A stretch of DNA of 37,456 nucleotides from Candidatus Mediterraneibacter intestinipullorum (lineage in GTDB: Bacteria; Bacillota; Clostridia; Lachnospirales; Lachnospiraceae): assembly GCA_019118665.1 (NCBI GenBank), contig DWYM01000102.1:1-37456 (forward strand), given 5' to 3'. Both the position numbers and the translations under genes were made by a program. This document shows positions 6,001 to 34,537 of the stretch, one piece after another (the stretch's first letter is position 1; each line of letters opens with the position of its first letter). A model generated the notes under the pieces. It was not told the DNA's origin. It made no database searches and saw only the letters and a list, made by a program, of their open reading frames with translations.

Positions 6001-7354
6001 TGACGGAACCGTTGAGGTTCCTGCGGATCAGACACCCCGGATTACTCTGGCCGGATCAGTTGCAGACGGCGACACTCCGACAGCTTCCGCTCCTGTGTGG
6101 AGCTATGCCGCAGCCGATGCTGCAGAAACTGTCGACATCATAGGAAGCGGTCTTGTGCTGGATGGGTCATGGCAGAGGTGGTATGATCTGTCCACAGATA
6201 CTGTGACACTTACAGGCGGAGGCAGGATCGAGAAAAGTGCGCAGAGTGCGCAGAATGAGCGTGTGGATCTGCCTGCAGGTACAGCATCGTCATCCGTGAC
6301 CAAACTTCTTTCCGGGCTTGTACCGGAAGATGCGGGAGGAGTACCGGTCTATAAGGTGATAAGTTATACCGAGAACGGGCTGGTTTCTGCAAGTGTCAAT
6401 GAGGAGGGTGAACTAAGTGTTGTCTCAAAGGAAATAACAGATGTTTCAATGACGGATACCGTTATAGTAGAAGTAAGCGGTATGGCAAACTACAGTGATT
6501 TTACAATTGAAGTTACGGTGGGTTACGCGGACAGAACCCCGGTGACTATTACATTTACTCCCCGTCAGACTGCTGCTGTGTACAATGGACAGCAAATACA
6601 GGGATATGGGGAGATTACGGCAGTTTATACGGATGAGAACGGTTTTGCTCAACCGTATAACAATCTCTCATATATTTATGAGGGGGCAACCCGGTCGGGA
6701 GAGGTTTACGGACCGGTCAGCGCGCCTCCTTCCCAGGCGGGAAGCTATACGGTGACTGCTTCTGTGCCTGAGACAGATATAATGTATGCAGGAAGCCAAA
6801 GCTTTGCTTTTGTAATAGAGCCAGCTTCTCTCACATTCAAAGCTGATAATATCCAGATTGAGCAGGGAGCGGCAATGCCTGTATTTACCTACACAGTAGA
6901 AGGTCTTGTAAGCGGGGACAGTCTGATTACCGAGCCCGTTCGGACGACTTCAGCAGCGGATACCAGTATGCCGGGAATCTATACTATCAGCATTGCCGGA
7001 GCCGATGCGGGAGCGAATTATATAATTGCCGGTTATGTGAGTGGTACCCTGACAATTACAGCCGTTTCCAATCCGGAGCCTGATCCGGGGCAGCCACCAG
7101 TCCTGGATCCGGATCCTGGGCAGCCGTCGGTTCCGGATTCTGCTTCGGGAATTCAAGCAGATCCAACTGTTCAAAACACCGTTGCAGCGTCCGAGTCAGA
7201 AGGAAAGAAAAAAGCTCAGATCCCGCCGAAGACGCGAGATAATGACTTGGTGGGTCTACATGTTTTAGTTATTGCTGGAGCATTTATAATAAGCGTTCTT
7301 GGAGTTCTCGGCATGCAAAACAAGCGTAACCGGAGAAAAAATAAAACAACGTAA
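62..7354 (+). CDS. Giant secreted surface protein: transglutaminase-like domain plus YDG-type repeats
   Basis: 2430 residues. The start is fixed by an AGGAGG site about 10 nt upstream. Residues 1-28 form a signal peptide with probable cleavage after SFA. A transglutaminase-like core follows, with a plausible Cys262 (GGTFCDGYS), His292 (GKHAWSW) and Asp307 (VSDST) triad. A short BspA-like segment lies near residues 370-470. Most of the rest is repeats with the recurring motif K-x-YDGT, alternating with EMF-x-x-I-x-DQ-x-YTG segments, typical of the YDG/MBG bacterial surface families. The tail is proline/aspartate rich, then PPKTRD, a hydrophobic helix and a basic end. This resembles a sortase signal, but the usual Gly is Arg, so covalent anchoring is uncertain. 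The role is probably wall or host-surface attachment, or protein cross-linking or hydrolysis; the substrate is unknown. No operon partner is seen, and a terminator follows directly. Confidence 0.85.
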   Translation: MKSKVRSVLALFMVVSILSGTLPITSFAESAFDTVADVAEEDERRDVTAEEPGLTGVPWYWRPDGVESEGQGSMTIEDYDGSQRDQIVDFIVEKYPLWDGLVSAKLTIKEEDMGDITGLGPDATQDEIYEWWGREAEQIVYDAREALSAERSFAYWRYIYAAGHRFTTSPINFAWDGEGGYTITIKTGGNPWFHNYQKEVELRKFVQNLYSPGGELYPYRAENDLYSDYEKYTAVWNWIKNNISYGGTHSAWQGIVQGGTFCDGYSAGNALLCAYAGVESIPVIGYIPAGKHAWSWIKIGEKYFVSDSTANNVNGQFFLVDQEEKDGYHQLDEYEEPAEIQARYPRYTFTYNEALEDGNKIDSGRIGDNLSWILSEGVLTISGKGDMRDFEDPFLVPWRNSTEYIKKVVIKDGVTSIGANAFYSLQNIKKDDSSTAEIAESVKKIGKHAFYDPNDPVTEFSSRLSLKSSFERQYEGTGIKREDIVHEAYYGTTPASDSDFQYRYSTDKGVNWTNGLPENVGTYVIEVTLKEKNLGGITYHSSKDTISATVTKGDFTVKSIQADTGRIYDGTTKVNIDSVFTDYSHWWNRHLEMGVDYDVTAEYVSPDVGTYTAYMTVTPRNTDRMNNYNLTYPTEPVSTTFRIRPKTLTEEMFDKIPDQAHTGAEVRPLLSISDSEADIMSYDDFTVTYENNVSEGTGYAVVKGQNNYTGEVRLPFKIDASLEAETTLTPINSSGAVSRTFTYPEIMKVDLEHVKNMQGQTVSLHYTEKDGSLSSEPLAEAMVGENGSAEFTVNTHDKKLPSGSHTLVAVPAQKQSADLEIAHVAVTLNKIKLTATPSESCYVVKEYDGTTKSLTLEEGGRQYNVKLDLDNVVDGDEVNTTYVCEHASAEIGDHDLLFKNIALAGKDADFYHLTNTTASIGTVKHPFDGTYTIRAEIVRADVTPHIQLGEKIYDGTSDVPITDIKWDGLVGDDTLRQTTDYTIEAHFNETNAGKQSVTVTMKLLNTPATSHYRLVYYDPFTIEGMIKPKEITEQMFEKIPKQSYTGEKIEPEVKVAATEKLLTKENYTLTYGENINGTGSVTVTGKKNYTGEVTLTFPISGGEEQSSIDGDSYRGNTQTSDFIYGDIITVRGLASGVNEGTKVYLYNGDTLLGEASTNEKGNYEIDYYTNKKSIPASGETASLRLRLGGKTESEALAVKDIKVSLSPRQVTARLTGDAVKVYDGTTGLPENHSMKILLDDILAVDSSVLTAEGSYRFESASAGTKTVIASDLILVDSTSAGVESFYQLAGDKEITTEVTGGINQAVITSAITAQDKDYDGEKSADVTVTFSGLAGDEQLTLDQDYTVTASFDNKNAGTDKTVRAVITLKDKGVAANYKFDGDTPTKAEVTDQADIRPLALKKEMFVPVEDQPWTGSQITPKISIAKGYDLLTKDDFKVTYGENIRESGTVTITGTNNYTGTVDLTFTIVGDAPLPELSARTYKGSAEETNFTYGDTITVKGAAALSSGASNGKVTLYVNGSQVGKTVKVDSEGTYTLTYNTEDKEFGASGDPVVLELRLSDSVDEKLASVQTKIVLSPKEVTAVLSGDAKKTYDGTADVPDAHSLKLSLEGVLEADKDQVSVSGDYAFTDVNANTSEVIATNVTLSNAAENVDVAGFYRLPEGTEVSAHVAGGISPAVLTADAEAKDKIYDGTADAEAVVTLAGLQNSETLTSGTDYTVTASFENENAAAGKKVTVNVTLSDSPAASNYCFRGSGETEEKTVTCTVQADITPLTLTTEMFIPIADQTYTGSPLTPQVTLAEAYASLLDANDYKAAYGSNTDAGTGLVSIAGQNNAQGSVDLYFRITGLMTTLTAQTEDESGNPTSQFVYGDRIVVTGTFATTDARARSLRAASQAGDGQVALYVGDIQVSEPQNVSMDNRSFTLSVNTGDKEIPAGDTVLKLRYLGSASLAASEIDIPIRLEKRVLTPEAHSDSLITKTYDGTVEVPADQTPRITLAGSVADGDTPTASAPVWSYAAADAAETVDIIGSGLVLDGSWQRWYDLSTDTVTLTGGGRIEKSAQSAQNERVDLPAGTASSSVTKLLSGLVPEDAGGVPVYKVISYTENGLVSASVNEEGELSVVSKEITDVSMTDTVIVEVSGMANYSDFTIEVTVGYADRTPVTITFTPRQTAAVYNGQQIQGYGEITAVYTDENGFAQPYNNLSYIYEGATRSGEVYGPVSAPPSQAGSYTVTASVPETDIMYAGSQSFAFVIEPASLTFKADNIQIEQGAAMPVFTYTVEGLVSGDSLITEPVRTTSAADTSMPGIYTISIAGADAGANYIIAGYVSGTLTITAVSNPEPDPGQPPVLDPDPGQPSVPDSASGIQADPTVQNTVAASESEGKKKAQIPPKTRDNDLVGLHVLVIAGAFIISVLGVLGMQNKRNRRKNKTT

Positions 7355-7540: not shown

Positions 7541-8119
7541 GTGTACCGTGTACCGGGTCATGTTTCAGATCGTTCCAAGCTATCGATTAAAAAGAAACCC
7601 AATGGGATTACAAAAGCCCACCGGGAAGCCATGAAAGCTGATGACCTGTTAATATGGAAACCGTATGTATCTGCGATTTTTGACTGCTTTGATCTTGGTG
7701 TCTTCGGTCTGGTAATGGGTACATGCATGAAAGCGGGTTTGTATGTCCATACATTAGAGAAGGCTCCGACCACATATTCGCCTCTGGAAGGTACCATTAT
7801 CCATTGTGACCGTGGAAACGCAGTATACCAGCGAGGTATACCAAAGGGCTATTCGAGACTATCATTACCGCCAAAGCATAAACAGTGCCGGTGACCGGGC
7901 CAAGATAATGTACGCTTTGAGAGTATGTGCGCCCGGATGAAGACTGAGATTCCCTATGACCGTTACGATACGAAGCAGATGACGGCAGAGGAATTAAAGG
8001 AACTTATCTGGAAATACTTCACCAGCTACTGGAACAACTGGAGGATCTGATCAGCTAATGGAGGCCTTCTACCTATGATAAAACGCGGACAGTATTGTAA
8101 GAATTTGGAGCTGCCGTAA
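7541..8119 (+). pseudogene. IS3-family transposase (OrfB) remnant
   Basis: Pieces of an IS3-type DDE transposase appear in successive frames. The first reads SKLSIKKKPNGITKAHREA, then YVSAIFDCFDLGVFGLVM and IIHCDRGN (second catalytic Asp). After a frameshift near 7895, the stretch from 7901 reads DNVRFESMCARMKTEI (catalytic Glu region), then YDRYDTKQMTAEELKELIW and YWNNWRI. An in-frame TGA follows, then SANGG and a natural-looking end at the TAA at 8117-8119. The segment that normally carries the first catalytic Asp, between the HREA and YVSAIFD motifs, is missing. With an internal deletion, a frameshift and a nonsense codon, no active transposase can be made. The upstream piece from about 7400 shows no clear terminal repeat. 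Confidence 0.75.
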
Positions 8120-8218
8120 GTGGTGGGATCTACACCATGGTTGAGACTGTCAAAGCGAATGGGCTTGCCCCAATGAAGTATATAAAATATATTCTGGCTG
8201 AAATGCGGAGAAGTACGG
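8119..8218 (+). pseudogene. IS66-type transposase C-terminal remnant
   Basis: The frame starting next to the IS3 remnant reads IYTMVETVKANGLAPMKYIK followed by YILAEM. This matches the conserved C-terminal region of IS66 TnpC transposases (usually YSIVETAKANGL-x-P-x-KYL-x-YL). Only about 30 recognisable codons remain, and they run into the 3' end of the minus-strand membrane-protein gene. It is too short to be functional and marks a second, older insertion at this spot. Confidence 0.55.
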
Positions 8219-8953
8219 TTAGTGATCAAACCACCGCAGATTAAATCGGTCAGTCAGTCTCAAGAGTTGATTTTTAAGAAAAAGCATAATCAATACAATG
8301 GAAAGCAGAGTAATCGGCAAGATGAGTGAAAATCCATTTAGAATACCGTTGAAAAGAGAACCTGCTAGGGCTCCTGCGACAAAGCTGCCTGCAATGAGAA
8401 AATAATGTCTGAAGTTTACAAGATGTCTGCGGTCCTGGACATGGATATATGCGCACAGTTCTTGTATTCCGCTGCGCAGATTTCCTGTACACATGACAGA
8501 AATATAGGACAGCCCATGAAGTGATCTGAAAGCCTGTGTCTGTAGAGCACAAATGAAGGATATGATAATGTTGGCCACTCGGTTTGAGCCGGCAGGAATA
8601 AACATACACACGGTCAGGAGAAGGATTTCTAGAATAAGTATGATATGTCTCCATTTTATATAGCTTGCCCTGCTCATACGCCGATGAATATTTTCTGCAA
8701 GAAATACGCCGAACAGAAACGATAAGATGGGGAGTATATAATAGGACGCACCCTGAAAATCCCCTTCTGCCAGTTGGATGCCCAGCAGAACGAGATTTCC
8801 GGTCTGACCATTGGAAAAAACCCCTCCCCTGTATAGATAAGTGTAAGCGTCGAGAAATCCTCCTGACATTGTCAGAAGAATCCCGACGATGAGGGTTTCT
8901 GAGATTCGTATTCTGTTATCTTCATGTTTAATCTCAGTTAGCATATTCTCCAC
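8219..8953 (-). CDS. YoaK/DUF1275 family membrane protein
   Basis: 244 residues with about six hydrophobic segments. The first carries LLTMSGGFLDAYTYL followed by GGVFSNGQTGNLVLLGI, the signature of the DUF1275 (YoaK) family of small integral membrane proteins. The biochemical function of the family is not established; transport or membrane stress roles have been suggested. I chose the GTG at 8953 because a GGAGG lies 9 nt upstream; the ATG at 8944 would be poorly spaced. The start lies inside the end of the PEBP-like gene (20-nt overlap), so the two are probably co-transcribed and translationally coupled. The 3' end abuts the transposase debris. Confidence 0.85.
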   Translation of the reverse strand: MENMLTEIKHEDNRIRISETLIVGILLTMSGGFLDAYTYLYRGGVFSNGQTGNLVLLGIQLAEGDFQGASYYILPILSFLFGVFLAENIHRRMSRASYIKWRHIILILEILLLTVCMFIPAGSNRVANIIISFICALQTQAFRSLHGLSYISVMCTGNLRSGIQELCAYIHVQDRRHLVNFRHYFLIAGSFVAGALAGSLFNGILNGFSLILPITLLSIVLIMLFLKNQLLRLTDRFNLRWFDH

Positions 8954-9434
8954 TGATGGTTACCTCCCCGAGAATGTGCCCTTTCATTTTTCGGTACATC
9001 TCATTCATGTAGAATCCATCTTTCAGATCTAGTACAGTATCCAAGGCATAGACGTGGATATCGTATATGTGCGGGGCATCCGGCGGAGCCATGCCTCCGT
9101 AGTAACTGCAGGATTCTGCCGGGTGGCTTCCGCCCTGTAAGCTCAGCCATGAGTTGACGCCCTGGACAAAATCATCTGCCGTCTGGCTTTCGTTTTCTCT
9201 CAATTCTGTTCTGCAGATATTTGCGGCAACCCAGTGTACCCATGTGAATCCACCGCTCACCGGGAAAGCATCTTTGTCGTCGATCACGACGGCAAAGCTT
9301 TTCGTTTCCTCCGGTGCGTCTTTGATGGACAGGGGGAGAGAATATGTCGGCATGCCGAGTTCGTTGCACGCACCCCTCTTTCCGTATTTGTCCTGAATGA
9401 TTCCATTCACGATTCCACTGCTTGTTACTTTCAT
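8934..9434 (-). CDS. YbhB/YbcL-type phosphatidylethanolamine-binding-like protein
   Basis: 166 residues from the ATG at 9434, which has an AGGAGA site 6 nt upstream; an 18-codon longer frame exists but lacks such a site. The sequence follows the bacterial PEBP (Raf-kinase-inhibitor-like) fold: TYSLPLSIKDAPEETKSFAV, the ligand-pocket stretch FTWVHWVAANI, the GxxG-type GGMAPPDAPHIYDIHVYALD, and a C-terminal helix region ending GEVTISGEYAN. Members are small cytoplasmic or periplasmic proteins whose ligands in bacteria are poorly known. It is the first gene of a two-gene unit with the YoaK-like protein. A perfect palindrome about 100 nt upstream is a candidate operator for the adjacent Crp/Fnr regulator. 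Confidence 0.85.
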   Translation of the reverse strand: MKVTSSGIVNGIIQDKYGKRGACNELGMPTYSLPLSIKDAPEETKSFAVVIDDKDAFPVSGGFTWVHWVAANICRTELRENESQTADDFVQGVNSWLSLQGGSHPAESCSYYGGMAPPDAPHIYDIHVYALDTVLDLKDGFYMNEMYRKMKGHILGEVTISGEYAN

Positions 9435-9533
9435 AGTTGTTCTCCTTTCCGCGGCGTTGGCTGTCAAGGGGTTCCATGCCGCTGACAATCTTATATATTA
9501 TGCCGCCATCATACACTGGAAAAACAGAGAAGT

Positions 9534-9562: not shown

Positions 9563-10225
9563 TTATAATGTTTTTAACTGGAACCAGCTATGCCTGTAAT
9601 CCAGAATCCCCTCTTTTTTCATTTTGGACAGTTCTTTGGAAAGGGCACAGCGGTCGACGGAGAGATAGTCTGCCATCTGCTGTCTGTCATAAGGGATAGT
9701 AAAAGAGGGAGTCCCATTTTTTTGATATTCCTCCGAGAGAAAGGCAGAGACTTTTTCCCTCAGGTTTCTGCGGGAGAGGATGTCTGCTTTTTTCATATAG
9801 TTTAGTTTTTTTTGGATGATTATGGTCATCAGGTTGTGATACAGTTTCAAAATCCCATTGTCACCGCGGCGTGCGGCATCCAGTATCTTCTGTGTCCTGA
9901 TAAAAAGCAGGTTTGACGGCTCTACCGCGACAAGGGAGAAGAAAAGGGGAGTCCGGGAGATGCTGTGTGCTTCCCCGAACAGCGTATTCTTTGTAAATTC
10001 TGCAATAATATTCTGATTCCCCCAGAAATCTTCGGATATCATGTGAATCCTGCCCTCCAGAACGATTCCGGTATCTTCTATTACATCTTCCGGGTAGGAG
10101 AGAAACTCGCCGGAAGATGCATTTTTTATGTGGGGATAAAGTACTGTGTCAAGCCGGGCAAGTTCGTCCACTGTGATGCCCTGAAAAAGCGGAATGTGGG
10201 AAAGTATGTCTGCGTTCAGTATCAT
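9563..10225 (-). CDS. Crp/Fnr family transcriptional regulator
   Basis: 220 residues from the ATG at 10225, preceded by GGAGGTG; a longer frame to 10294 has no ribosome site. The N-terminal half is a cyclic-nucleotide-binding-type beta-barrel (LFQGITVDELARLD, GIVLEGRIHMISED, NTLFGEAHSIS). The C-terminal half has a winged helix-turn-helix (DRQQMADYLSVDRCALSKEL) after the REKVSAFL segment typical of the family. It lacks the Cys cluster of oxygen-sensing FNR, so the effector is probably a small molecule or redox state; which one cannot be told. It is divergent from the CoA-transferase operon with only 83 nt between starts, so it very likely controls that operon and itself. The same layout is common for pathway-specific activators. 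Confidence 0.88.
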   Translation of the reverse strand: MILNADILSHIPLFQGITVDELARLDTVLYPHIKNASSGEFLSYPEDVIEDTGIVLEGRIHMISEDFWGNQNIIAEFTKNTLFGEAHSISRTPLFFSLVAVEPSNLLFIRTQKILDAARRGDNGILKLYHNLMTIIIQKKLNYMKKADILSRRNLREKVSAFLSEEYQKNGTPSFTIPYDRQQMADYLSVDRCALSKELSKMKKEGILDYRHSWFQLKTL

Positions 10226-10236
10226 TTTACACCTCC

Positions 10237-10278
10237 GTTGCAAATACCACATACAAGTTATGGAAATGATACTACAAT
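10237..10278 (+). promoter_or_regulatory. Putative activator-dependent promoter of the dicarboxylate operon
   Basis: The 83-nt divergent spacer has a -10-like TACAAT at 10273-10278. The -35 match 17 nt upstream is weak (CATACA), as expected for an activated promoter. GTTGC-AAAT-ACCAC at 10237-10250 keeps the left half and part of the right half of the palindrome found at 9534-9551. It would be centred near -41.5 relative to the predicted start, the usual class II Crp/Fnr position. The right half-site is degenerate, so confidence is low. Confidence 0.35.
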
Positions 10279-10308
10279 ACGGACAAATTCGCAAGGAGGT
10301 GCAGAAAA

Positions 10309-11502
10309 ATGGGAAAAGGACTGTTGGAAGGAGTAAAGGTTCTTGATCTGACGAGGGTGCTGGCAGGACCGTACTGTGGTATGATGCTGGCTGATATGGG
10401 AGCGGAGGTGATCAAAATAGAAGTGCCGGGTAAAGGAGACGATGCCAGAGGAAACTTCCCGATCATCAATGGAGAGAGCGCGTATTACATGAACTTAAAC
10501 CGCAACAAGAGAGGGATGACCCTGAATCTGAAAAGCGAGAAGGGAAAGGACATTTTGCGTAGGCTTGTGTCCCAAAGCGATATCCTGATTGAGAATTACC
10601 GACCGGGCGTCATGGAAAAGCTGGGCTTGGGGTACGAGAATCTGAAAAAGGTCAATCCTGGGCTGATTTACGGCTGTGTATCAGGGTTTGGACATTATGG
10701 CCCCTATTCGCAAAGAGCCGGATACGATATTATCGGGCAGGCGATGAGCGGACTGATGAGCACCACCGGATGGCCGGGCGGGAAGCCAACCCGGACAGGA
10801 ACTGCCATTGCCGATGTGATGGGCGGTCTGTCCTGCTGCACCGGGATCCTGGCAGCATATATCAACAGGATGAAAACCGGAGAAGGAGAGAAGGTAGATG
10901 TGTCTCTGGTGGATTCCATGGTATCCTCGCTTGAGATCATTAACATCATCTACCTATGTACCGGAAAAGTACCGGAGAGGATTGGAAACAGGTATGAGGC
11001 AATCTATCCCTATGATTCTTTTGAGGCTTCGGACGGTTCGGTGGTGATCGGAGCGGGAAATGACAAGCTGTTCGGACTGCTGTGTGAGCAGATGGAAAAG
11101 ATAGAGCTGCTGGAGGATGAGCGGTTTTGCTGCAACAACAGCCGAGTGCTTCACCACGCTGAGCTTAAACCTATCATAGAAGAGTGGCTCCGGGATAAGA
11201 AGATTGATGATATCGTGGATTTGCTGCTGGATGCAGGAATTCCCGCCGCTCCCATCAATACGATCGACCGCGTTGCGAAAGATCCGCATATTGCGGGGGC
11301 AAGGGAGATGTTTGTTGAAATCGACCATCCGAAAGCCGGGAAACTAAAAATGACGGGAAACCAGATCAAGCTGACCAACCATAAGATCGATACATTTAGA
11401 CCGGCTCCCACTCTGTCACAGGATACGGAAGAAATATTGAGGAAGTATCTGGATATGTCGGAAGAGGATGTAAAACTGCTGGTAAAAGAACAGGTAGTAT
11501 AA
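10309..11502 (+). CDS. CaiB/BaiF (class III) CoA-transferase
   Basis: 397 residues, the usual length of family III CoA-transferases. The ATG follows AAGGAGG. Visible family features are the N-terminal GVKVLDLTRVLAGPYCGMML, GAEVIKIE, NRNKRGMTLNLK, RPGVMEKLGLGYE, SGFGHYGPYS and RAGYDIIGQAMSGLM. Asp169 in TAIADVMGG is at the expected position of the catalytic aspartate that forms the acyl anhydride. The enzyme moves CoA between carboxylic acids in the cytoplasm. As first gene of a five-enzyme operon with an aconitase-type hydro-lyase and an HMG-CoA-lyase-type enzyme, it most likely activates a hydroxylated dicarboxylate (for example citramalate or a methylmalate) before C-C cleavage. The exact donor and acceptor are not shown by the sequence. 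Confidence 0.9.
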   Translation: MGKGLLEGVKVLDLTRVLAGPYCGMMLADMGAEVIKIEVPGKGDDARGNFPIINGESAYYMNLNRNKRGMTLNLKSEKGKDILRRLVSQSDILIENYRPGVMEKLGLGYENLKKVNPGLIYGCVSGFGHYGPYSQRAGYDIIGQAMSGLMSTTGWPGGKPTRTGTAIADVMGGLSCCTGILAAYINRMKTGEGEKVDVSLVDSMVSSLEIINIIYLCTGKVPERIGNRYEAIYPYDSFEASDGSVVIGAGNDKLFGLLCEQMEKIELLEDERFCCNNSRVLHHAELKPIIEEWLRDKKIDDIVDLLLDAGIPAAPINTIDRVAKDPHIAGAREMFVEIDHPKAGKLKMTGNQIKLTNHKIDTFRPAPTLSQDTEEILRKYLDMSEEDVKLLVKEQVV

Positions 11503-11547
11503 AGGCGGGGAACACGAAATGACAATGACGGTACAGAGGTGCGGAAC

Positions 11548-12804
11548 ATGGGAATGACGATGACAGAAAAAATATTAGCCCGGGGATGCGGGCAAAAGAG
11601 TGTAAGGCCGGGGGAAATCGTATGGTGTAAAGTGGACGGCGCCATGATGGACGATATCCTTGGCCCCCGGGTAGAGATAGCGGAGAAACTAAAGGAGCTT
11701 GGGGCTTCCATATGGGACGCCGGCAGGGTCACCATTGTATCAGATCACTATACTCCGCCCGCTAACAGCAAACAGGCAGAAATCGTGAAATTTACGAGAG
11801 AGTGGGCGCGGCAGCATGGGGTCTCCAATTATTTTGAATTCGCCGGACCGTGCCATCAGGTCATGGTGGAAAATGGGCGCGTGTGCCCCGGGGATATTAT
11901 TGTGGGAACAGATTCCCATACTTGTACATATGGCGCGCTGGGTGCCTTTTCCACAGGCATTGGGTCCACGGAGATGCTGGGAGTTCTTGTGACAGGAGAG
12001 ATATGGCTGCGAGTACCGGAGAGCATCCGGATCGTTTTGCGGGGAGAGCTTCCTGAAAGTGTGATGGCAAAAGATGTGGCGCTGAAAGTGATCGGCACAC
12101 TGGGGCATCATGGGGCAACCTACAAAGCCCTTGAATTTACTGGCGATACATTTGAAAAAATGATCATGGATGAGCGGCTGTGCATAGCCAACATGGCAGT
12201 GGAAGCAGGAGCTAAGAATGGGATTTTTCCGTTTGATGAAGTGACAGGGGATTATCTGAGAGAGCAGGGGACTCCCTGCGGCGAAGCCCTGGCAAGCGAT
12301 GAGGACGCTGTGTATGCACAGACAGTCGAATTTGAATCAGAACAGCTTGAGCCTCTCTGCACATGTCCCCATGAGGTAGACAATGTAACGGAGATAAAGA
12401 ACCTGGACAATGTAACGGTTGATCAGGCTTACATCGGTTCCTGCACCGGGGGACGGTATCACGATCTGAAGATGGCGGCGGATTTCCTGAAAGGAAAGAA
12501 AGTTGCCAGAGGGGTGAGGCTTTTAGTCTCCCCGGCTTCGGCGCAGGTTTGGAGACAGTGTGCAAAAGATGGGATACTAAATACACTGGCAGAGGCAGGG
12601 GCGGTCGTGCTGGCATCAAGCTGTGGGGCATGCCTGGGAGTGCATTCCGGAGCTATCGGATCCGGAGAAGTATGCGTGTCATCTACGAACCGGAACTTTA
12701 TCGGCAGGATGGGGAGCAAGGAAGGGCAGATCTATCTGGCATCCCCTTTGTCTGTAGCAGCCAGCGCAGTCATGGGAAAACTGACGGACCCAAGGATGAT
12801 ATAA
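11548..12804 (+). CDS. Aconitase-family hydro-lyase, large subunit (LeuC/DmdA-like)
   Basis: 418 residues from the ATG at 11548, which has AGAGGTG 6 nt upstream; a GTG at 11539 and ATGs at 11554 and 11560 are alternatives. It has the aconitase-superfamily large-subunit pattern: VSDHYTPP, FEFAGPCHQVMVENG, GDIIVGTDSHTCTYGALGAF, GIGSTEM. The three [4Fe-4S] cysteines are Cys299 (GSCTGG), Cys359 and Cys362 (SSCGACLG). Relatives are 3-isopropylmalate dehydratase, homoaconitase and 2,3-dimethylmalate dehydratase. Neighbouring genes are not leucine genes (no leuA or leuB), so a leucine role is unlikely. The context suggests reversible hydration of a citraconate- or dimethylmaleate-like acid. The small subunit follows 9 nt later. 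Oxygen sensitivity is expected from the labile cluster. Confidence 0.88.
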   Translation: MGMTMTEKILARGCGQKSVRPGEIVWCKVDGAMMDDILGPRVEIAEKLKELGASIWDAGRVTIVSDHYTPPANSKQAEIVKFTREWARQHGVSNYFEFAGPCHQVMVENGRVCPGDIIVGTDSHTCTYGALGAFSTGIGSTEMLGVLVTGEIWLRVPESIRIVLRGELPESVMAKDVALKVIGTLGHHGATYKALEFTGDTFEKMIMDERLCIANMAVEAGAKNGIFPFDEVTGDYLREQGTPCGEALASDEDAVYAQTVEFESEQLEPLCTCPHEVDNVTEIKNLDNVTVDQAYIGSCTGGRYHDLKMAADFLKGKKVARGVRLLVSPASAQVWRQCAKDGILNTLAEAGAVVLASSCGACLGVHSGAIGSGEVCVSSTNRNFIGRMGSKEGQIYLASPLSVAASAVMGKLTDPRMI

Positions 12805-12813
12805 GGAGGAAAC

Positions 12814-13341
12814 ATGGAAAAAGAGAGTGGTGTATACAGAGGAAGATGCTTAAAATATGGGGATAATATTAATACGGACATTATTTCTCCCCCGATGTAT
12901 ATGGAGCTGCCCATAGAGCAGGCCGCCGCATATGCCATGAGTCCCATTGATCCGGAGTTTGCTTCAAAATGCAGACCGGGGGATATCTTTGTGGCAGAGG
13001 AGAATCTGGGCAGCGGATCCAGCCGGGAAACAGCGCCGCTGGCGCTAAAGGAGCTGGGCATCCGTATTGTTCTGGCAAAATCTTATGCAAGGATATTTTA
13101 CCGCAACTGCATCAATCTGGGGATTCTTGCCATTGAATGCAGCCAGACGGACAAAATCGCCTATTTTGACGAGATAGAGATCGACTATAAAAAGGGAGTG
13201 ATCACGAACAGGAGCAGTCAGGAGACATACAGGTGTCAGGCGATTCCAAATCATATTGTCGGTCTGACAGAAAAAGGCGGGCTTTTTGCCTGCCTCATGG
13301 AAAGGAGAGAGAAGGTAGATGGATCAGATATACATTTATGA
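12814..13341 (+). CDS. Aconitase-family hydro-lyase, small subunit (LeuD/DmdB-like)
   Basis: 175 residues, typical of the swivelling small subunit of LeuCD-type enzymes. AAGGAGG lies just upstream of the ATG. Diagnostic stretches are KYGDNINTDIISP near the N-terminus and the substrate-binding loop GSGSSRE, followed by SYARIFYRNCINLGI. It forms the active dehydratase with the preceding large subunit, with which it is separated by only 9 nt. Its 3' end overlaps the lyase gene by 23 nt, pointing to coupled translation. The substrate-discriminating loop differs from leucine-pathway LeuD as far as I can judge by eye, which agrees with the non-leucine context but does not name the substrate. Confidence 0.87.
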   Translation: MEKESGVYRGRCLKYGDNINTDIISPPMYMELPIEQAAAYAMSPIDPEFASKCRPGDIFVAEENLGSGSSRETAPLALKELGIRIVLAKSYARIFYRNCINLGILAIECSQTDKIAYFDEIEIDYKKGVITNRSSQETYRCQAIPNHIVGLTEKGGLFACLMERREKVDGSDIHL

Positions 13342-14248
13342 AGTTGGACCAAGGGACGGTTGGCAGAATGTGGCGGAGCTGATTTCCACAGAGGAAAAAA
13401 AGAAGATCATTGATGGCCTGGCAGATGCAGGCGTCTCCCATATCCAGATCTGCTCCTTTGTTAGTCCCAGGGCGATCCCCCAGATGCGGGATGCCAAAGA
13501 GGTAGCAAAGTACTGTGTCAGCCGGTATCCGAATATAGATCTGCTGGCGCTGGTGCCGAATCTCCGCGGCGCAAAGGACGCGCAGGAGGCGGAAATCCGG
13601 CATCTCTCTTATGTGGTCTCTTTAAGCGAAAGCCACAATAAAGCAAACATAAACCGTACAAGGGAGGAGTCGCTGCAAGAACTGGAGAATATCATGGAGG
13701 CTTACCCTGATCTTAATATCTGCGTGGATATTGCCACTGCGTTCGGATGCCCCTTTGAGGGTAAACCGAAAGAAGGAGAACTGGCAAAATTCGCAGAGCA
13801 GGTGTATGGGATGGGAATAAGAGAAATCTGCCTGTGCGATACCATCGGTGCGGCAAATCCCCGCCAGGTGCGCGAGGAAATCCGCCGTGTGGAAAAAACC
13901 TGTCCGGAACTTGAACTCATGGTCCATATCCACGACACAAGAGGCATGGGACTGGCATGTACGCTGGCGGCGGCTGAAGCCGGGGTCACCAAAGTCCAGT
14001 CTACCCTGGGAGGACTGGGCGGATGTCCTTTCGCCCCGGGGGCATCGGGCAACACAGCGACAGAAGATCTTGTATATATGTTCCAAAATATGGGATATGA
14101 TACAGGGATCGACTTTGGCAGGCTGCTGAAGCTGTCAAAATACCAGAAGTCTGTCATACAGGGGAATTACAGCGGACATCATATGATGATCCAAATGATG
14201 CAGGAATATGGAGAGAAGGGGGACGGACAGATATGCACAGCCAGATGA
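13319..14248 (+). CDS. HMG-CoA-lyase-like enzyme (acyl-CoA C-C lyase)
   Basis: 309 residues, a DRE-TIM metallolyase of the HMG-CoA lyase group. The start has AAAGGAG upstream. Key features: EVGPRDGWQN (Arg12, Asp13; the family usually has RDGLQN), the metal-binding HIHDTRG (His203, His205), DTIGAANP, and the flexible loop GLGGCPFAPGASGN with the catalytic Cys236. All catalytic residues expected for cleavage of a 3-hydroxy-3-methyl acyl-CoA are present. In animals and leucine degraders such enzymes split HMG-CoA to acetyl-CoA and acetoacetate. Here there are no leucine- or HMG-pathway genes; the adjacent CoA-transferase and hydro-lyase instead suggest cleavage of citramalyl-CoA or a methylated relative to pyruvate plus acetyl- or propionyl-CoA. 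That substrate is an inference. It overlaps both neighbours. Confidence 0.85.
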   Translation: MDQIYIYEVGPRDGWQNVAELISTEEKKKIIDGLADAGVSHIQICSFVSPRAIPQMRDAKEVAKYCVSRYPNIDLLALVPNLRGAKDAQEAEIRHLSYVVSLSESHNKANINRTREESLQELENIMEAYPDLNICVDIATAFGCPFEGKPKEGELAKFAEQVYGMGIREICLCDTIGAANPRQVREEIRRVEKTCPELELMVHIHDTRGMGLACTLAAAEAGVTKVQSTLGGLGGCPFAPGASGNTATEDLVYMFQNMGYDTGIDFGRLLKLSKYQKSVIQGNYSGHHMMIQMMQEYGEKGDGQICTAR

Positions 14249-15417
14249 ATATGATACGGTGTGCCATTGTGCGAGGTGGCACGAGCAAAGGAATCTTTAT
14301 CATGGAGAATGAACTCCCAGTGGACCCGAAGGAAAGAGACCGTGTGCTCCTCTCTGTTTTCGGAAGCCCGGATATCCGTCAGATTGATGGCCTGGGCGGC
14401 GCGGACGTGCTCACCAGCAAACTTGCAATAATCTCTCCGTGCCGCACAGGCGAGGCGGATGTGGATTATACATTCGGACAGGTCAGCATTGAAAAAGCCT
14501 TCATCGACTACGGCGGCAACTGTGGGAATATTTCATCAGCAGTAGGTGGTTTTGCCATTGACATGGGACTTGTCCGTGCAGTGGAGCCGGTTACAACAGT
14601 CAGGATACGCCTGACAAACACGAACCGCATCCTGACGGCTTCTGTTCCTGTAACCGATGGAAAGGCCGCGGTGGAAGGAGACTATCACATTGATGGAGTC
14701 CCCGGTACCGGGGCGAAAATCACTCTGGACTGGTCAGAGACAGCGGGCGGTATCACAGGAAATGTCCTGCCAACTCGAAGAGCGCAGGATATCATATCCG
14801 CAGACGGCAGAAACTACAGGGTGTCTGTAGTGGACGCGGGAAATATCGTGGTCTTTGTCCATGCCGGGGAACTGGGGCTTAAAGGGACGGAAACACCGGA
14901 ACAGATTGAAAGGGACAGCGGGCGAATGCGGCTTATCGAGCGGATCAGGGGAGAAGTATGCACGAAGATCGGTCTGGTGAAGCGGTGGGAGGATGCACAG
15001 AAAGTGACGCCGTTTCAGCCGTTTTTTGCGATTGTCAGCAAAGAACGCAGCCATGAGTGCTTCAATGGGCGGAAAATAGAAGAGGGAGAAAGCCACATAA
15101 CCTCCCGGATCGTATTTATGGGACATATGCATAAAGCCTACCCTGTCACAGGAACCGTGGCTACTGCAGCTGCGGCGAGGATACCGGGCAGTGTGGTATA
15201 TGATCTGCTAAGTGATAAGGCACATAATGAGCCTGTGCTTAAGATCGCCCACCCGTCCGGCATAATAGAGGCGGAAGCCCGGGTGTCTGTGCGGGATGGG
15301 AAAATAAGTGTGGAGAAGATTGGAATATACAGAACCGCGAGAATGATAATGGATGGGTATGTGTATGTGAGAAAAGAAAGGAGAAATTGCTGTGAAACAA
15401 AAGCAAAAATGGATTAG
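14233..15417 (+). CDS. PrpF / methylitaconate delta-isomerase family protein
   Basis: 394 residues, matching the PrpF/Mii/GalD family of cofactor-free double-bond isomerases with two diaminopimelate-epimerase-like folds. Visible signatures are IRCAIVRGGTSKGIFI at the N-terminus, IDGLGGADVLTSKLAI, DYGGNCGNIS with a candidate catalytic Cys97, and GTVATAAAARIPGSVVYDL near the C-terminus. Known members interconvert 2-methyl-cis- and trans-aconitate, 3-methylitaconate and dimethylmaleate, or oxalomesaconate tautomers. As the last enzyme of the operon it probably shifts the double bond of an itaconate-type substrate to give the acid hydrated by the aconitase-like pair. It overlaps the lyase gene by 16 nt. 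Its own end overlaps the start of a surface-protein gene by 26 nt. Confidence 0.87.
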   Translation: MHSQMNMIRCAIVRGGTSKGIFIMENELPVDPKERDRVLLSVFGSPDIRQIDGLGGADVLTSKLAIISPCRTGEADVDYTFGQVSIEKAFIDYGGNCGNISSAVGGFAIDMGLVRAVEPVTTVRIRLTNTNRILTASVPVTDGKAAVEGDYHIDGVPGTGAKITLDWSETAGGITGNVLPTRRAQDIISADGRNYRVSVVDAGNIVVFVHAGELGLKGTETPEQIERDSGRMRLIERIRGEVCTKIGLVKRWEDAQKVTPFQPFFAIVSKERSHECFNGRKIEEGESHITSRIVFMGHMHKAYPVTGTVATAAAARIPGSVVYDLLSDKAHNEPVLKIAHPSGIIEAEARVSVRDGKISVEKIGIYRTARMIMDGYVYVRKERRNCCETKAKMD

Positions 15418-15814
15418 TTTATTTCTGGCATGCTGCCTGTTTTTAGAGCTGATGCCGACAGTGGTGCAGGCGGCGGGATCCGGCAGGGCAATACAGTCTG
15501 GCGCCAGTGTCCTGCAGGCGAACGCAAACAGCGAAAAGGCCGCAACCGTGTATTATGGTAAAAATAATTCAAATAGTCCTGCCGCATGGCGTGTGATCGG
15601 CTATAATGGCAGCAGCGGTATGGCAAGCTCGGCAGGGAATATGACTCTGCTTTCGGCAGGAAACATGGGAACAAGCAGTTATGGAAACGAATATGGAGGA
15701 AACAATATCTATGCATCCAGCATTCTGAAAAGCAAGGTTGACGACATCGCCAGCAAGCTGACGGAGCAGGAGCAGGATGCAGTTGTAAAAAGAACTCTTG
15801 AAGTTGGGAAATAA
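15392..15814 (+). pseudogene. N-terminal part of a surface protein, ended by an in-frame TAA
   Basis: 140 codons from a GTG start with AAAGGAG upstream, overlapping the isomerase gene. Residues 1-28 are a clear signal peptide ending VVQAA. The rest (ATVYYGKNNSNSPAAWRVIGYN) is the beginning of a domain seen in clostridial surface proteins with the later motifs ALLWPLS and WWLRSPG. TAA at 15812-15814 ends it, but the same frame continues directly with NGDSTAGVADTQVDNALLWP in the downstream part. A Tyr codon (TAT or TAC) changed to TAA would explain it. As written, the product would be a short secreted fragment without an anchor. A sequencing error is the other possibility. Confidence 0.75.
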
Positions 15815-15835: not shown

Positions 15836-18800
15836 GTGGCGGATACACAGGTAGACAACGCCCTGCTCTGGCCCCTTTCCACAGTGGAGGCAAAACAGCT
15901 CAACAGCAGCTTACGGCAGCTCGACACCACAAATACAGGCTGGGCAATATATCGGTGGTGGCTCCGGTCGCCCGGTTACTATGTCGACCATGCGGCTTAT
16001 GTATCGGGCAATGGCAATGTCGATTCTTATGGGGGCTTTGTCCCTTCTGTATATGGTGTGCGGCCCGCTTTTTACTTAAATCTGGATTCTGTCCTCTTTA
16101 CATCTGCCGCCACAGGCGGCAAGTCAGGCGGCTCAGACTCTGCCAGCGCTGGCGCGTTAAATCCGGTTTCGGACTACAACGGTACGGAATGGAAGCTGAC
16201 CCTGCTGGACAAAAGCAGAGAGGGGTTCGCCATTGGCACAACAGGGATAGACGGAAACACCCTCACCGTTGGATATTCCGGAGCACTTGTGGGAGAAAAT
16301 GAGTATGTTTCCGCTGTTGTGACAGACGGAAGTAAAAACATCACTTACTACGTCAGGCTGAAACATACAGCGACTCCCGGTGATGAAAACGGCACCATCT
16401 CTGTGACGCTGCCTGAGGAAGTCCTGGTTGCCGTTGACGACACCATATTTGACATGGGAGCGGATACTTATACTTATGACAGTACTTCAGGCGCTTTTCT
16501 CCTTAAAGACTCTGCCATAAATGGCGACATTATCATTGAAGCCTCAGGCAAGACGGACATAAAGGCTCCAAATGTAACTGCAACTGTAAGCGATGGTGAA
16601 AATCCGCCTGTCGCGTATACCGGTACATGGACAAATAACGATGTGACCTTTACGGTTTCCGGTGCATCCGCCCCGAGCGGCATTGCGAAATATCAGTATT
16701 CTGCAGATGGCGGAAAAGACTGGAATGACATGACCGCAAACCCGGCGACAGCCGAAGCTGATATAGAGCCAGCGAGTGTAACAGAGGCAGCCATGACAGT
16801 TTCCACTGAGTCTGCAGACACAAACGGCACTTCCTATATCTTCCGTGCTGTGTCCAATGCCGGTACAGAGGGTACTCAGACCGGCTCGGTCGTGGTAAAG
16901 ATTGATAAGACCAACCCGGCTGTCACAGTATCAGGCAATACAGAGGCTTATCTGCGAAGTGATAATGTTGCCGTTACCGCGTCTGATGAGCTGTCCGGCG
17001 TTGCCAGGGTTGAGGTGTCCGCAGGAGACAGCGGCAGCTATACAGACATCACGGATTCCTATGAAAGTGGGTATAAAATCACGTCAAACGGCACTTACAC
17101 CTTCAGAGTAACGGACGAGGCCGGCAATGAAGTCACAGACAGTATCCTCTATGACAAAATTGATACGGAAAAGCCGGCAGCAGTAATCGCAGCAAAGTCC
17201 GGCTCTGCGCCATACACAAGTGGCGAGTGGATGAACAGTGATGTCACCCTCTCAGTTTCCAACACAAACACCGCAAATCTCGGGGAAACTGGCTTCGAGT
17301 ACAAGGAAGGTGACGGAGAATGGCGGACATACAACGGCTCCATTACTGTTTCCCAGGATACAGGTGAAAACGGCACTGTCTATACCTTCCGGGCTATCAG
17401 CGCCAGCGGGGTAGAGGGCGAGGGAGCGTTCATCACCGTTAAGCTGGACAAAACGGCGCCGGATGGAGATATCAAGATCCGGAAGAATTCCGTTAAGGAT
17501 TTCATCAACAACATCAGCTTTAACCTGTTCTTCAGGGAAAGCGTGGATGTGGAGATTACGGCGGAGGACGCTCTCAGCGGCATGAGATCTATCGAGTATC
17601 ACCGCAGCGAGAAGGTCCTCACTGAGCAGGATATTGCCGGGATTTCCGACTGGACGGACTATGCTTCCGTTATCCGTGAGACCGCGCAGGACGCAGAAAA
17701 GTTCATATATTATGTCAAAATCACGGACCAGGCAGGCAATGTGAGCTGCTTTGCATCCAACGGCGCCGCCTTTGACCTGACGTCTCCTGTTATCTCCGGC
17801 GTGACGGAGGGAGAAGTCTATTACACTACCCAGAAGGTGCAGGCAGCGGATGCGAATCTGGACAGCGTGACTGTAAACGATACGTCTGTGGCAGCGGAAA
17901 CATTCCTTGCCGGAAACACTGATGCCACATACAGGATCCTGGCAAAGGACAGGGCAGACAATGAAAGCGCCGTCACAGTCACAATGAGGCCAACGGCAAG
18001 CCTGGCGGAAGCGATTGCCGGGATCACTCTTGAAAATGTGACCTCTGAACATGAAGAAAAGCTCCAGAAGTATCTTACAGGCCTGAACATAAGACTTGGG
18101 GATGAAAATGCCACAGAGGAAGAAAAAGCCATCATCCAGGGGCTTGCAGAGGACGCGCAGAAGCTGCTGAACAGGATCGAGGCAGCGAGACAGGCGGGCA
18201 GCACAGAGCCGATCCAAAAGGCGGAGACCATCACGCCGGATACAGTCATGCTGACGGATAGAGAGACTCTGGAAGCCGCGCAAGGAGATATTGAGTATGC
18301 GCTGACCAACTATGGAAGGAACTACACACAGGAAGAATCAGCAAGACTTGATAAAATACAGCAGCAGAGCAAAACCGCTATTGCAGTCATTCAAAGGGTT
18401 GAAGCGGTTGAGAGCGCTATTGCGGCTCTGCCCGATTCCGTAAGACCGGACGACACGGAAACAGAAATGCAGATACACGCTGCAAGGGACATGTACGACG
18501 CGTTAAGCGTATACGAACAGTCTCTCGTTTCCCGGGAATCGTCAGAGAAGCTGGAACGTCTGCTGGCACAGCTTAAAGATTACCGCATCATCCAGAGCAG
18601 CAGTATCTGGATCCGGGGGAGCACCGCAGGGCATACCGTTACCGCAAACGGAGCGTACAGCAAGTTTACCGGGATCAAAGTGGATGGTGAAGCTGTGAGT
18701 GAGGAGCAGTACATGGCGGAAAGCGGGAGCACAGTGATCACGCTGCGTCCGGATTACCTGAGTACTCTCTCCACAGGCAGCCATACCATCACAGTGCTTT

Positions 18801-19108
18801 ACACAGATGGCGAAGCCACAGGCACCTTTACTGTTGTGGAAAAACCGGCAGAACAATCCCAACCGACAGAGCCGTCTGATTCAACGCAGCTGTCTCAGTC
18901 GACTCAATCGGACCAAACGGCTCAACCGATTCAAACGACTCAACCGGACCAAACGGCTCAACAGGACAGGACAGCCAGCCGGAACAGCGCTTCCCCTTCT
19001 ACCGGGGATGATCTTCATGGAACGTTTCTGATGATGCTCATGCTGATTTCCAGCGGCGCGGCAGTCGTGCTCGTAATGAGGAAAGCGGGGCGCAGAGGAA
19101 GGAGATGA
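15836..19108 (+). pseudogene. C-terminal part of the interrupted LPxTG-type surface protein
   Basis: 1090 codons in the same frame as the upstream fragment. The GTG at 15836 has no ribosome binding site, so it is not a convincing independent start. The order is: rest of the DUF6273-like domain (ALLWPLS, WWLRSPGYYVDHAAY, GVRPAFYLN), several Ig-like repeats with DKTxP and ASDELSGVA motifs, a helical region near residues 720-900, a Thr/Gln/Pro-rich stalk and a sorting signal (SPSTGDD, hydrophobic helix, RKAGRRGRR). Apart from the single upstream TAA the frame is open, so the lesion is recent or the stop is an artefact. The intact protein would be wall-anchored by sortase and perhaps bind host or diet glycans or proteins; the ligand is unknown. 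Confidence 0.75.
18859..18965 (+). repeat. Thr/Gln/Pro-rich stalk repeats
   Basis: A low-complexity stretch encodes repeating TQPDQTAQ-like units. The 16-nt string GGACCAAACGGCTCAA occurs twice, 33 nt apart. It forms the wall-spanning stalk just before the sorting signal and may vary in length between strains. Confidence 0.6.
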
Positions 19109-34068: not shown

Positions 34069-34449
34069 CCCTTAATGCATTCTGTTTTGAAAGGGCATCC
34101 ACTGCAGCCGCTGCTTTGATATACGGTAACGGTTCTTCGGTAGCAGCTGACCGTTTCCTTCGAGAAACAGGTAATTCTCTTCGCTTTCATATCCTGCATC
34201 CGCCACGATCTCCTGATATTTATACGGAAGATATAACTCCATGTCTTTCAGAAACGGGATCAATGTCCTTGTATCTGTGGGACGGGAACTGGTATCCAGC
34301 CATGTGACGTATTCCGAATCCACTCCATGCTGAAGATTATAAGCCGGTTTCAACTGTCCATTAAGCATAGCATCTTCTTTCATCCGCATAAAAGTCGCAT
34401 CCGGGTCTGTTTTGGAATAACTATTGCGGTCTCCACAGACATGGAGCTT
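34069..34449 (-). pseudogene. IS1182-type transposase fragment
   Basis: On the minus strand from 34449, the frame reads GDRNSYSKTDPDATFMRMKE, DAMLNGQLKPAYNLQHGVDS, then TLIPFLKDMELYLP and IVADAGYESEENYLFLEG. This is the DDE domain core of IS1182-family (transposase 11-type) proteins. After a frameshift and an internal deletion near 34150 another frame gives YQSSGCSGCPFKTECIKGN, the Cys motif of the same family. Both the N-terminal third and the C-terminal end are absent. No terminal repeats were recognised. The fragment lies between the hicB remnant and the promoter of the TIR-like gene. Confidence 0.75.
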
Positions 34450-34462
34450 TTGGTTGAACTTG

Positions 34463-34491
34463 TTGAAAATTGTCAAAATTTGATATATTAT
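34463..34491 (+). promoter_or_regulatory. Promoter of the TIR-like gene
   Basis: TTGAAA at 34463-34468, a 17-nt spacer and TATTAT at 34486-34491 form a good sigma-A promoter 46 nt before the start codon. It lies just outside the transposase fragment, so the gene has its own promoter. Confidence 0.65.
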
Positions 34492-34537
34492 ACAGATGTG
34501 GTGTGCTTTCGGAAGGTTTGTATGGAGGGATGAAAAT

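Follow-up and report, generated by a model that had tools for sequence, protein, structure and literature searches.

In the Ict-Ich-Ccl pathway of Pseudomonas and Yersinia, coenzyme A (CoA) is added first and itaconyl-CoA is then hydrated to (S)-citramalyl-CoA (PMC12290011), and with PA0878-PA0883 in P. putida no use of citraconate or (R)-citramalate was obtained (PMC9875883). (R)-Citramalate CoA-transferase (EC 2.8.3.20) and (R)-citramalyl-CoA lyase (EC 4.1.3.46) are known activities (PMC8307300). In the clostridial nicotinate fermentation, a PrpF/Mii isomerase (Mii) and then a LeuCD-type hydro-lyase (DmdAB) act on free acids. The stretch analysed here (the window) is the entire contig C83 (37,456 bases) of Candidatus Mediterraneibacter intestinipullorum (genome G000; 2.50 Mb, 123 contigs, 83% complete), and its plus strand carries at 10309-15417 an operon encoding, in this order, a class III CoA-transferase (CoAT), the large and the small subunit of a hydro-lyase, a protein of the 3-hydroxy-3-methylglutaryl-CoA (HMG-CoA) lyase family (HMGL) and a PrpF/Mii-type isomerase. 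From comparison of sequences, the five genes are a real, conserved catabolic module with common descent of the set, rare and decaying in some relatives. The module is tentatively read, with slightly less than even confidence, as degrading by fermentation an unsaturated dicarboxylic acid that is short and branched, the likeliest candidates being the C5 acids of the itaconate, mesaconate and citraconate group. Loci (L) and genomes (G) are given by working labels.

The gene identities proposed in an earlier note on this DNA were borne out by Pfam, NCBIfam and solved relatives, with Pfam E-values of 7e-128 (CoA_transf_3), 3.7e-97 (Aconitase), 1.2e-19 (Aconitase_C), 3.6e-49 (HMGL-like) and 7.3e-111 (PrpF) for the five proteins, respectively (Table 1); none of the NCBIfam equivalog models listed for them (for the lyase, the best 25 of 27 models) reached its cut-off. 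The genes had been described there as tightly overlapping, which holds for two of the four junctions (23 and 16 bp), the other two being gaps of 36 and 9 bp. The CoA-transferase was assigned to class III by its family profile and its catalytic Asp, which is present exactly as claimed, as are the three cluster cysteines of the hydro-lyase. The best NCBIfam model for the transferase was succinate-glutarate CoA-transferase (349 bits, below the cut-off of 750), and its best solved chain was the succinate-hydroxymethylglutarate CoA-transferase 9br6, presumably the same protein as SUGCT. SUGCT is named for itaconate use in mammals (PMC12558001). The large subunit of the hydro-lyase scored 560 bits with NF001614 (cut-off 385) and also exceeded the cut-offs of TIGR01343 and TIGR02086, and the small subunit scored 154.8 bits with TIGR02087 (cut-off 109); these profiles on both subunits, together with the cluster cysteines, place the enzyme among the LeuCD/DmdAB hydro-lyases. 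No clear ribosome site precedes the GTG at which the large subunit was called, and a later ATG may be the likelier start. The lyase was placed in the HMG-CoA lyase family by NF004283 (PRK05692; 293 bits, cut-off 246) and by Arg12, Asp13, His203, His205, Cys236, Asn245 and Glu249, so that the full catalytic set claimed for it stands except at one position, where Gln43 replaces the conserved Glu of 'IETTSF' in human HMG-CoA lyase, which we take to be Glu72. The isomerase scored 371 bits with PF04303, its best solved relative was Mii (3g7k, 374 bits; PrpF only 226 bits), and it carries the motifs GGTSKG, TSKLAI and GNCGN, of which the last two are identical in 3g7k and the first reads AGTSKG there; profile and motifs place it in the PrpF/Mii family.

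Table 1. Coordinates in the window of the five operon genes and of the neighbouring genes.
Feature	Position	Strand	Details
Class III (CaiB/BaiF) CoA-transferase, dicarboxylate type	10309..11502	+	397 aa; PF02515; catalytic Asp169
Large subunit, dedicated LeuC/HacA-type [4Fe-4S] hydro-lyase	11539..12804	+	421 aa; NF001614; Cys302/362/365; module clade
Small subunit, LeuD/DmdB family, specificity loop YMEL	12814..13341	+	175 aa; TIGR02087
HMG-CoA-lyase-family acyl-CoA lyase, proposed (R)-citramalyl-CoA-type lyase	13319..14248	+	309 aa; NF004283
PrpF/Mii-family allylic isomerase	14233..15417	+	394 aa; PF04303; Mii 3g7k; clade sister to nicotinate Mii
Divergent Crp/Fnr-family regulator	9563..10294	-	PF00027, PF13545
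YbhB/PEBP-family protein	8934..9488	-	PF01161 E 2.3e-29
DUF1275 membrane protein	8219..8953	-	PF06912 E 2.6e-50

Isomerases of the Mii type shift a double bond adjacent to a carboxylate, enzymes of the LeuCD type add water to cis-butenedioates, class III transferases activate carboxylic acids and HMGL-family lyases split 3-hydroxyacyl-CoA. In the proposed pathway, the isomerase would shift the double bond of itaconate to give citraconate, the hydro-lyase would add water to this cis acid to give (R)-citramalate, the CoA-transferase would form the CoA ester, (R)-citramalyl-CoA, with succinyl-CoA or acetyl-CoA as the donor, and the HMG-CoA-lyase-type enzyme would cleave the ester to acetyl-CoA and pyruvate. 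More generally, an unsaturated branched acid would pass through its cis isomer, the hydroxy acid and the CoA ester to acetyl-CoA and a 2-oxoacid. This order of the chemistry, as put forward in the earlier note, fits the gene content; what each enzyme does, on which substrate, with which stereochemistry and in which direction is a prediction.

The predicted outcome, acetyl-CoA plus pyruvate, and the use of a CoA-transferase are shared with Ict-Ich-Ccl, whereas the module would isomerise and hydrate free acids first, by enzymes of the Mii and LeuCD families, and would use an HMGL-family lyase. No match to a MaoC-type itaconyl-CoA hydratase or a CitE-type lyase was found among the five proteins and their three neighbours (the rest of the genome was not searched), in agreement with the claim that protein families other than those of Ict, Ich and Ccl would do the work. 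As in the nicotinate fermentation, free acids would be acted on first by a PrpF/Mii isomerase and next by a LeuCD-type hydro-lyase; the module is without the phosphoenolpyruvate-mutase-family lyase (Dml) and the mutase of that fermentation, has a CoA-transferase and an HMGL-family lyase instead, and its LeuCD falls in another clade. Its proposed last two reactions are those of the (R)-citramalate CoA-transferase and (R)-citramalyl-CoA lyase, a likeness drawn at the level of the reactions, and to these the module adds an isomerase and a hydratase. The Chloroflexus enzymes of that pair are a class III transferase and an HMGL-family lyase. No description of the five-gene set was found in the open-licence literature searched, nor was the cluster found there inside a characterised pathway, the circumstance that the earlier note had named as speaking against its proposal. 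The module is thus, as far as the literature searched goes, a so far undescribed form of branched dicarboxylate catabolism through a CoA-ester lyase.

A search of genomes for conservation of the set, suggested in the earlier note, was done on samples of relatives of 397, 58, 392, 391, 397, 7 and 199 genomes, with reading confined to the stretches fetched and ORF (open reading frame) calling done mechanically. A scan of genome contigs with the lyase gave 71 loci, and tblastn with the five proteins on these and on the window's own locus gave the full set in L005-L008. The lyase was matched at E 1e-40 in 18 of 397 genomes of the Lachnospiraceae sample (nine neighbourhoods fetched), the L097-type lyase at E 1e-55 in 16 of 391 genomes of the class sample, including G940, and PrpF in 9 of 58 genomes of the genus sample. 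Each genome was counted once (L005 = G308, by a shared 44366-base contig; L003 = G429, L004 = G435, L006 = G426, L007 = G431, L002 = G434 and L009 = G422). The full set was found in nine genomes (the window, L005, L006, L007, L008, L095, L096, L097 and G940) and in four arrangements. The five genes of L005, from a Mediterraneibacter metagenome-assembled genome (MAG) to which the contig of the window is nearly identical, are 99-100% identical to those of the window. The order is CoAT-LeuC-LeuD-PrpF-HMGL in L008, and CoAT-HMGL-aldehyde dehydrogenase-PrpF-LeuC-LeuD in L095 (G163), L096 (G384; its CoA-transferase recognised by tblastn) and L097 (G085). In G940 (L172, L214), the five genes share one strand over about 14 kb, a span that grows to about 16 kb if a CitMHS-type carrier is counted in; a PrpR_N regulator and an IS110-type transposase lie among them, as does an additional, broken copy of PrpF next to LeuC.

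Among the nine PrpF-matching genomes of the genus, the full set was present in four (G000, G308, G431 and G426), LeuCD was missing in two (G429 and G435), the cluster was broken in two (G434 and G422), and G412 carried another PrpF type. In G652 (L125), of a different genus, the isomerase is kept with fragments of the transferase and the lyase. The ratio of nonsynonymous to synonymous substitution (dN/dS) was 0.02-0.26 over the computable pairs; dS was saturated between distant sequences and gave no value for several pairs. In L003 and L004, where LeuCD is missing, CoAT, HMGL and PrpF are retained at a dN/dS of 0.02-0.16, with a leucine-type LeuD elsewhere in the genome; LeuCD may have been lost once or twice there, the tree giving these two no firm order among its five Mediterraneibacter rows.

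In phylogenetic trees, the LeuC of the module (8 rows) formed a single clade (100/100), separate from the genome's leucine-type LeuC and from the DmdA of nicotinate clusters, and the module and DmdA sequences were two separate clades, each with 100/100 (9 of 26 rows, more distant and aconitase-type, were excluded by name). The PrpF of the module (10 rows; all 28 rows used) likewise formed a single clade (100/100), sister to the Mii of nicotinate clusters and apart from the PrpF of aconitase-type clusters; this clade includes the PrpF of L227, for which the other four genes were absent from the rows shown. It is this full support of the hydro-lyase and isomerase clades, together with the presence of all five genes in nine genomes, that argues for a conserved catabolic module. 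The window genome has a second LeuC-LeuD pair, with the loop YLNS, on contig C89, and given the higher score of this pair with TIGR02087 (215.5 versus 154.8 bits) the LeuCD of the operon is not supported as the leucine isopropylmalate isomerase of the genome; we infer that the C89 pair serves leucine biosynthesis. The earlier statement that no leucine genes lie nearby is correct for the window, but has to be read with this separate leucine-type pair in the same genome.

The LeuD loop determines specificity, as known from work on archaeal enzymes. All 8 module rows have YMEL at this place, and none of the leucine-type, DmdB or PrpF-less copies read has it. Elsewhere the loop is YLVY in the isopropylmalate/citramalate isomerase 3vba, YLRT in the homoaconitase 2pkp, YLVT or HLVT in the PrpF-less sets L174-L176 and YAMx in the DmdB of nicotinate clusters. 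As a direct reader of substrate polarity the loop was weakened, with Asn at this position in leucine-type LeuD and YLEL in a LeuD copy of G940 outside the module (L205).

For a C5 acid of the itaconate group as the substrate, support comes from relatives with part of the set. Housekeeping isopropylmalate isomerase is promiscuous and can hydrate citraconate, and the LeuCD-less clusters L003 and L004, with their dN/dS of 0.02-0.16 and a leucine-type LeuD elsewhere, would be expected if it does so there. L174, L175 and L176 have a carrier (sodium-solute, scanned in L174), LeuC, LeuD, CoAT and HMGL, with no PrpF in the stretch read, which fits a route entering at the cis acid. CoAT-HMGL pairs stand with TRAP, DASS or CitMHS-type carriers in L092, L173, L177 and L094, and each of the 4 regulators scanned beside such sets (L092, L094, L172 and L174, selected as sigma-54-activator-like) contains a PrpR_N sensor domain; these sensors and carriers beside CoAT-HMGL sets give circumstantial support for branched acids.

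Several observations weigh against this reading. The module of L095-L097 lies in one same-strand run with transketolase, IolM-like, IolN and CoA-acylating aldehyde dehydrogenase genes, which have no place in an itaconate route. A methyl side chain does not account for the Glu in the LeuD loop or for Gln43 of the lyase, and Gln43 itself is not common to all module lyases, Glu being present in L095-L097 and L172. Clusters are broken in L002, L009 and L125, so that the trait is being lost, and G940 also carries its broken PrpF copy; the LeuCD-less clusters could equally represent early decay. No known transporter family was found by Pfam and NCBIfam among the eight window proteins (the five and their three neighbours). 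The itaconate pathway of the earlier note thus stands in gene content and order of chemistry, with itaconate itself as the leading reading only and a hydroxylated analogue as a serious rival.

In that rival, 2-(hydroxymethyl)maleate or 2-formylsuccinate would be converted to itatartarate (2-hydroxymethylmalate), the CoA ester of which would be cleaved to acetyl-CoA and hydroxypyruvate, the acid being derived in some bacteria from a cyclitol such as inositol or quinate. The embedding of the module in transketolase/cyclitol-type operons (L095-L097) was not foreseen in the earlier note and keeps a hydroxylated substrate in play. These operons bear transketolase, IolM-like, IolN and SauS-like aldehyde dehydrogenase genes (in L096, IolM-like 225 bits with a cut-off of 450, IolN 283 with 245, and SauS-like 505 with 600; in L095, only the C-terminal transketolase half is on the contig). 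In L010 (Faecalicatena orotica) and L011 (a Clostridia MAG), the two halves of transketolase adjoin CoAT-HMGL, along with a 2-hydroxyacid dehydrogenase of the hydroxypyruvate-reductase type (in L010, 319 bits with a cut-off of 448) and, in L011, a glycerate kinase; these neighbours fit hydroxypyruvate as the product and hence the hydroxymethyl analogue. The CoA-transferase of the window is 75% identical to that of L010, and the acidic residue in the LeuD loop is on the same side, as weak evidence in view of the Asn of leucine-type LeuD and the YLEL of L205. Against a hydroxylated substrate, neither transketolase half had a match near the module in the parts of L005-L008 and G940 that were read, IolN was not matched in G000 or G308 at E 1e-60 (a more distant homologue being possible), and no closed chemical scheme was obtained for the large L095-L097 operon. 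On balance, the C5 methyl acid stays a tentative reading and the hydroxylated analogue is regarded as doubtful.

By an extension of this idea, the module would be the lower half of an undescribed fermentation of cyclitols or cyclitol acids such as inositol or quinate, with oxidation of the ring, its opening by an enzyme of the IolN type, removal of C2 units by transketolase, conversion of a branched hydroxylated diacid by the isomerase and the hydratase, and HMGL-type cleavage to acetyl-CoA and hydroxypyruvate, Mediterraneibacter keeping the lower half only and living on a free branched acid; we consider this unlikely. The five genes do belong to an operon with IolM/IolN and transketolase in G163, G384 and G085, whereas those of the window genome stand without these. 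A quinate scheme for the L095-L097 operon is speculative. The Anaerostipes inositol-propionate pathway was rejected as the home of that operon: it goes via 5-dehydro-2-deoxy-gluconate 6-phosphate, and its main text mentions no transketolase, hydroxymethylglutaryl or isopropylmalate (PMC8355322).

That the operon serves two unrelated functions or is decaying, for example with LeuCD in leucine or citramalate side metabolism and CoAT-HMGL in degradation of HMG or another acid, appears quite improbable. The broken copies L002, L009 and L125 and the frequent occurrence of CoAT-HMGL without the remaining module genes would agree with it, and it is opposed by the low dN/dS between intact copies, by the repeated co-clustering in four arrangements and by the finding, in all 11 genomes tested, of a LeuD that does not belong to the module, with the leucine-type loop YLNS in 10 of them (the exception being G940).

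Conversion of trans-aconitate through cis-aconitate, citrate and citryl-CoA to acetyl-CoA and oxaloacetate, an alternative named in the earlier note, is judged very improbable, less firmly so than the C6 route below. PrpF-family proteins include aconitate isomerases, citryl-CoA resembles HMG-CoA, and a CitMHS-family carrier lies beside the G940 copy. The LeuD loop of the module, in contrast, has Glu where homoaconitase 2pkp has Arg, and where an aconitase-type hydratase stands next to PrpF in this order of bacteria (L108/L131 of one genome, and L126-L129), the PrpF proteins form a separate clade with 41-44% identity.

The other alternative named there, a C6 route from 3-methylitaconate through dimethylmaleate and 2,3-dimethylmalate to propionyl-CoA and pyruvate as a CoA-using version of the clostridial nicotinate fermentation, agrees with the sister position of the module PrpF to nicotinate-cluster Mii and with 3g7k as best solved relative, and is nonetheless highly unlikely. 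LeuC lies outside the DmdA clade, the DmdB loop is YAMx against YMEL, and none of the 10 genomes tested that carry the module (8 in full, 2 for the most part) gave a match to methyleneglutarate mutase, which was detected in both of the 2 controls; even without the mutase, the acid might be supplied from outside the cell. The query was the protein of L228 that we take to be the mutase of a nicotinate cluster, from gene order and from what is known of the family, Pfam finding nothing in it but a B12-binding domain; one control was its own genome, the genome of L008 was outside the set, and G000 was searched at its 83% completeness. A PF01642 search of 8 genomes gave no match, but the L228 mutase itself also has no PF01642 match.

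If the substrate is a C5 acid of the itaconate group, anaerobic gut Lachnospiraceae would have a second route for such acids, built from other enzyme families, which would use citraconate and (R)-citramalate and would tie the fermentation of commensals to a metabolite of host immunity. If it is the hydroxylated analogue, a fermentation of as yet unassigned chemistry would be opened. Either way, testable functions are obtained for protein subfamilies without an NCBIfam equivalog at cut-off among those listed.

Upstream of the operon, homologues of the Crp/Fnr-family regulator (67-100% identity) precede the cluster, or what is left of it, in L002-L007, L009 and L125 and were not found in L008; the regulator likely controls the operon. 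Homologues of the DUF1275 protein, a possible candidate carrier, were found in L005, L006, L007 and L125. Homologues of the YbhB/PEBP protein (62-100%) adjoin the clusters of L003-L009, L011 and L125, and none was found in the stretches L010, L095-L097, L172, L213 and L214; as a pathway component it was dropped, and it is given here as a recurrent neighbour without an assigned role. In L008 it lies at 2232 and 8866 and in L011 at 7967-8470, and in E. coli K-12 ybhB stands two genes from ybhJ, in the run ybhH-ybhI-ybhJ (PrpF-type isomerase, carrier and hydratase). Downstream, clpB directly follows prpF in L005 and L006. In the window, prpF and clpB (19327) are separated by two secreted-protein-like ORFs, one at 15392-15814 that begins like a signal peptide and one at 15836-19108 (1090 aa). 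Given the L005 and L006 order, prpF has thus undergone an insertion or rearrangement at its 3' end, and the final residues of its product differ.

Near the module in G940, L213 (912-9527) carries a CoA-free counterpart with a carrier, LeuCD (loop YLSL), a PrpB/dimethylmalate-lyase-like protein, PrpF and an MmgE/PrpD-looking gene. L126 (5078-14021), which combines a CitMHS-like carrier, an aconitase-type hydratase and PrpF with what appear to be genes for citrate lyase subunits, is likely a trans-aconitate cluster, to judge from sequence appearance. L181 (1373-16556, G1056) holds an HMGL-family lyase, an HMG-CoA-reductase-like protein, transketolase halves, a hydroxyacid dehydrogenase, IolM-like dehydrogenases, an RraA-like protein and an apiosidase-family protein, which suggests that apiose or another branched sugar is broken down there in a CoA-dependent way. 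In L179, L180 and L182, an HMGL-family lyase stands with a SauS-like aldehyde dehydrogenase, a thiamine pyrophosphate enzyme and Gfo/Idh; L179 has a shikimate/quinate-dehydrogenase-family gene and L182 a look-alike, both with carriers that by eye are TRAP-like, and the three loci possibly represent quinate/shikimate fermentation. Elsewhere in the window, a 2430-aa open frame upstream of the cluster (62-7354) perhaps encodes a surface protein, a weak match to the Cap12 family (an effector of the cyclic-oligonucleotide-based anti-phage signalling system, CBASS) lies at 34496-35206 (34 bits, cut-off 450), and the minus-strand ORF beside it (34072-34659) resembles by eye a transposase remnant.

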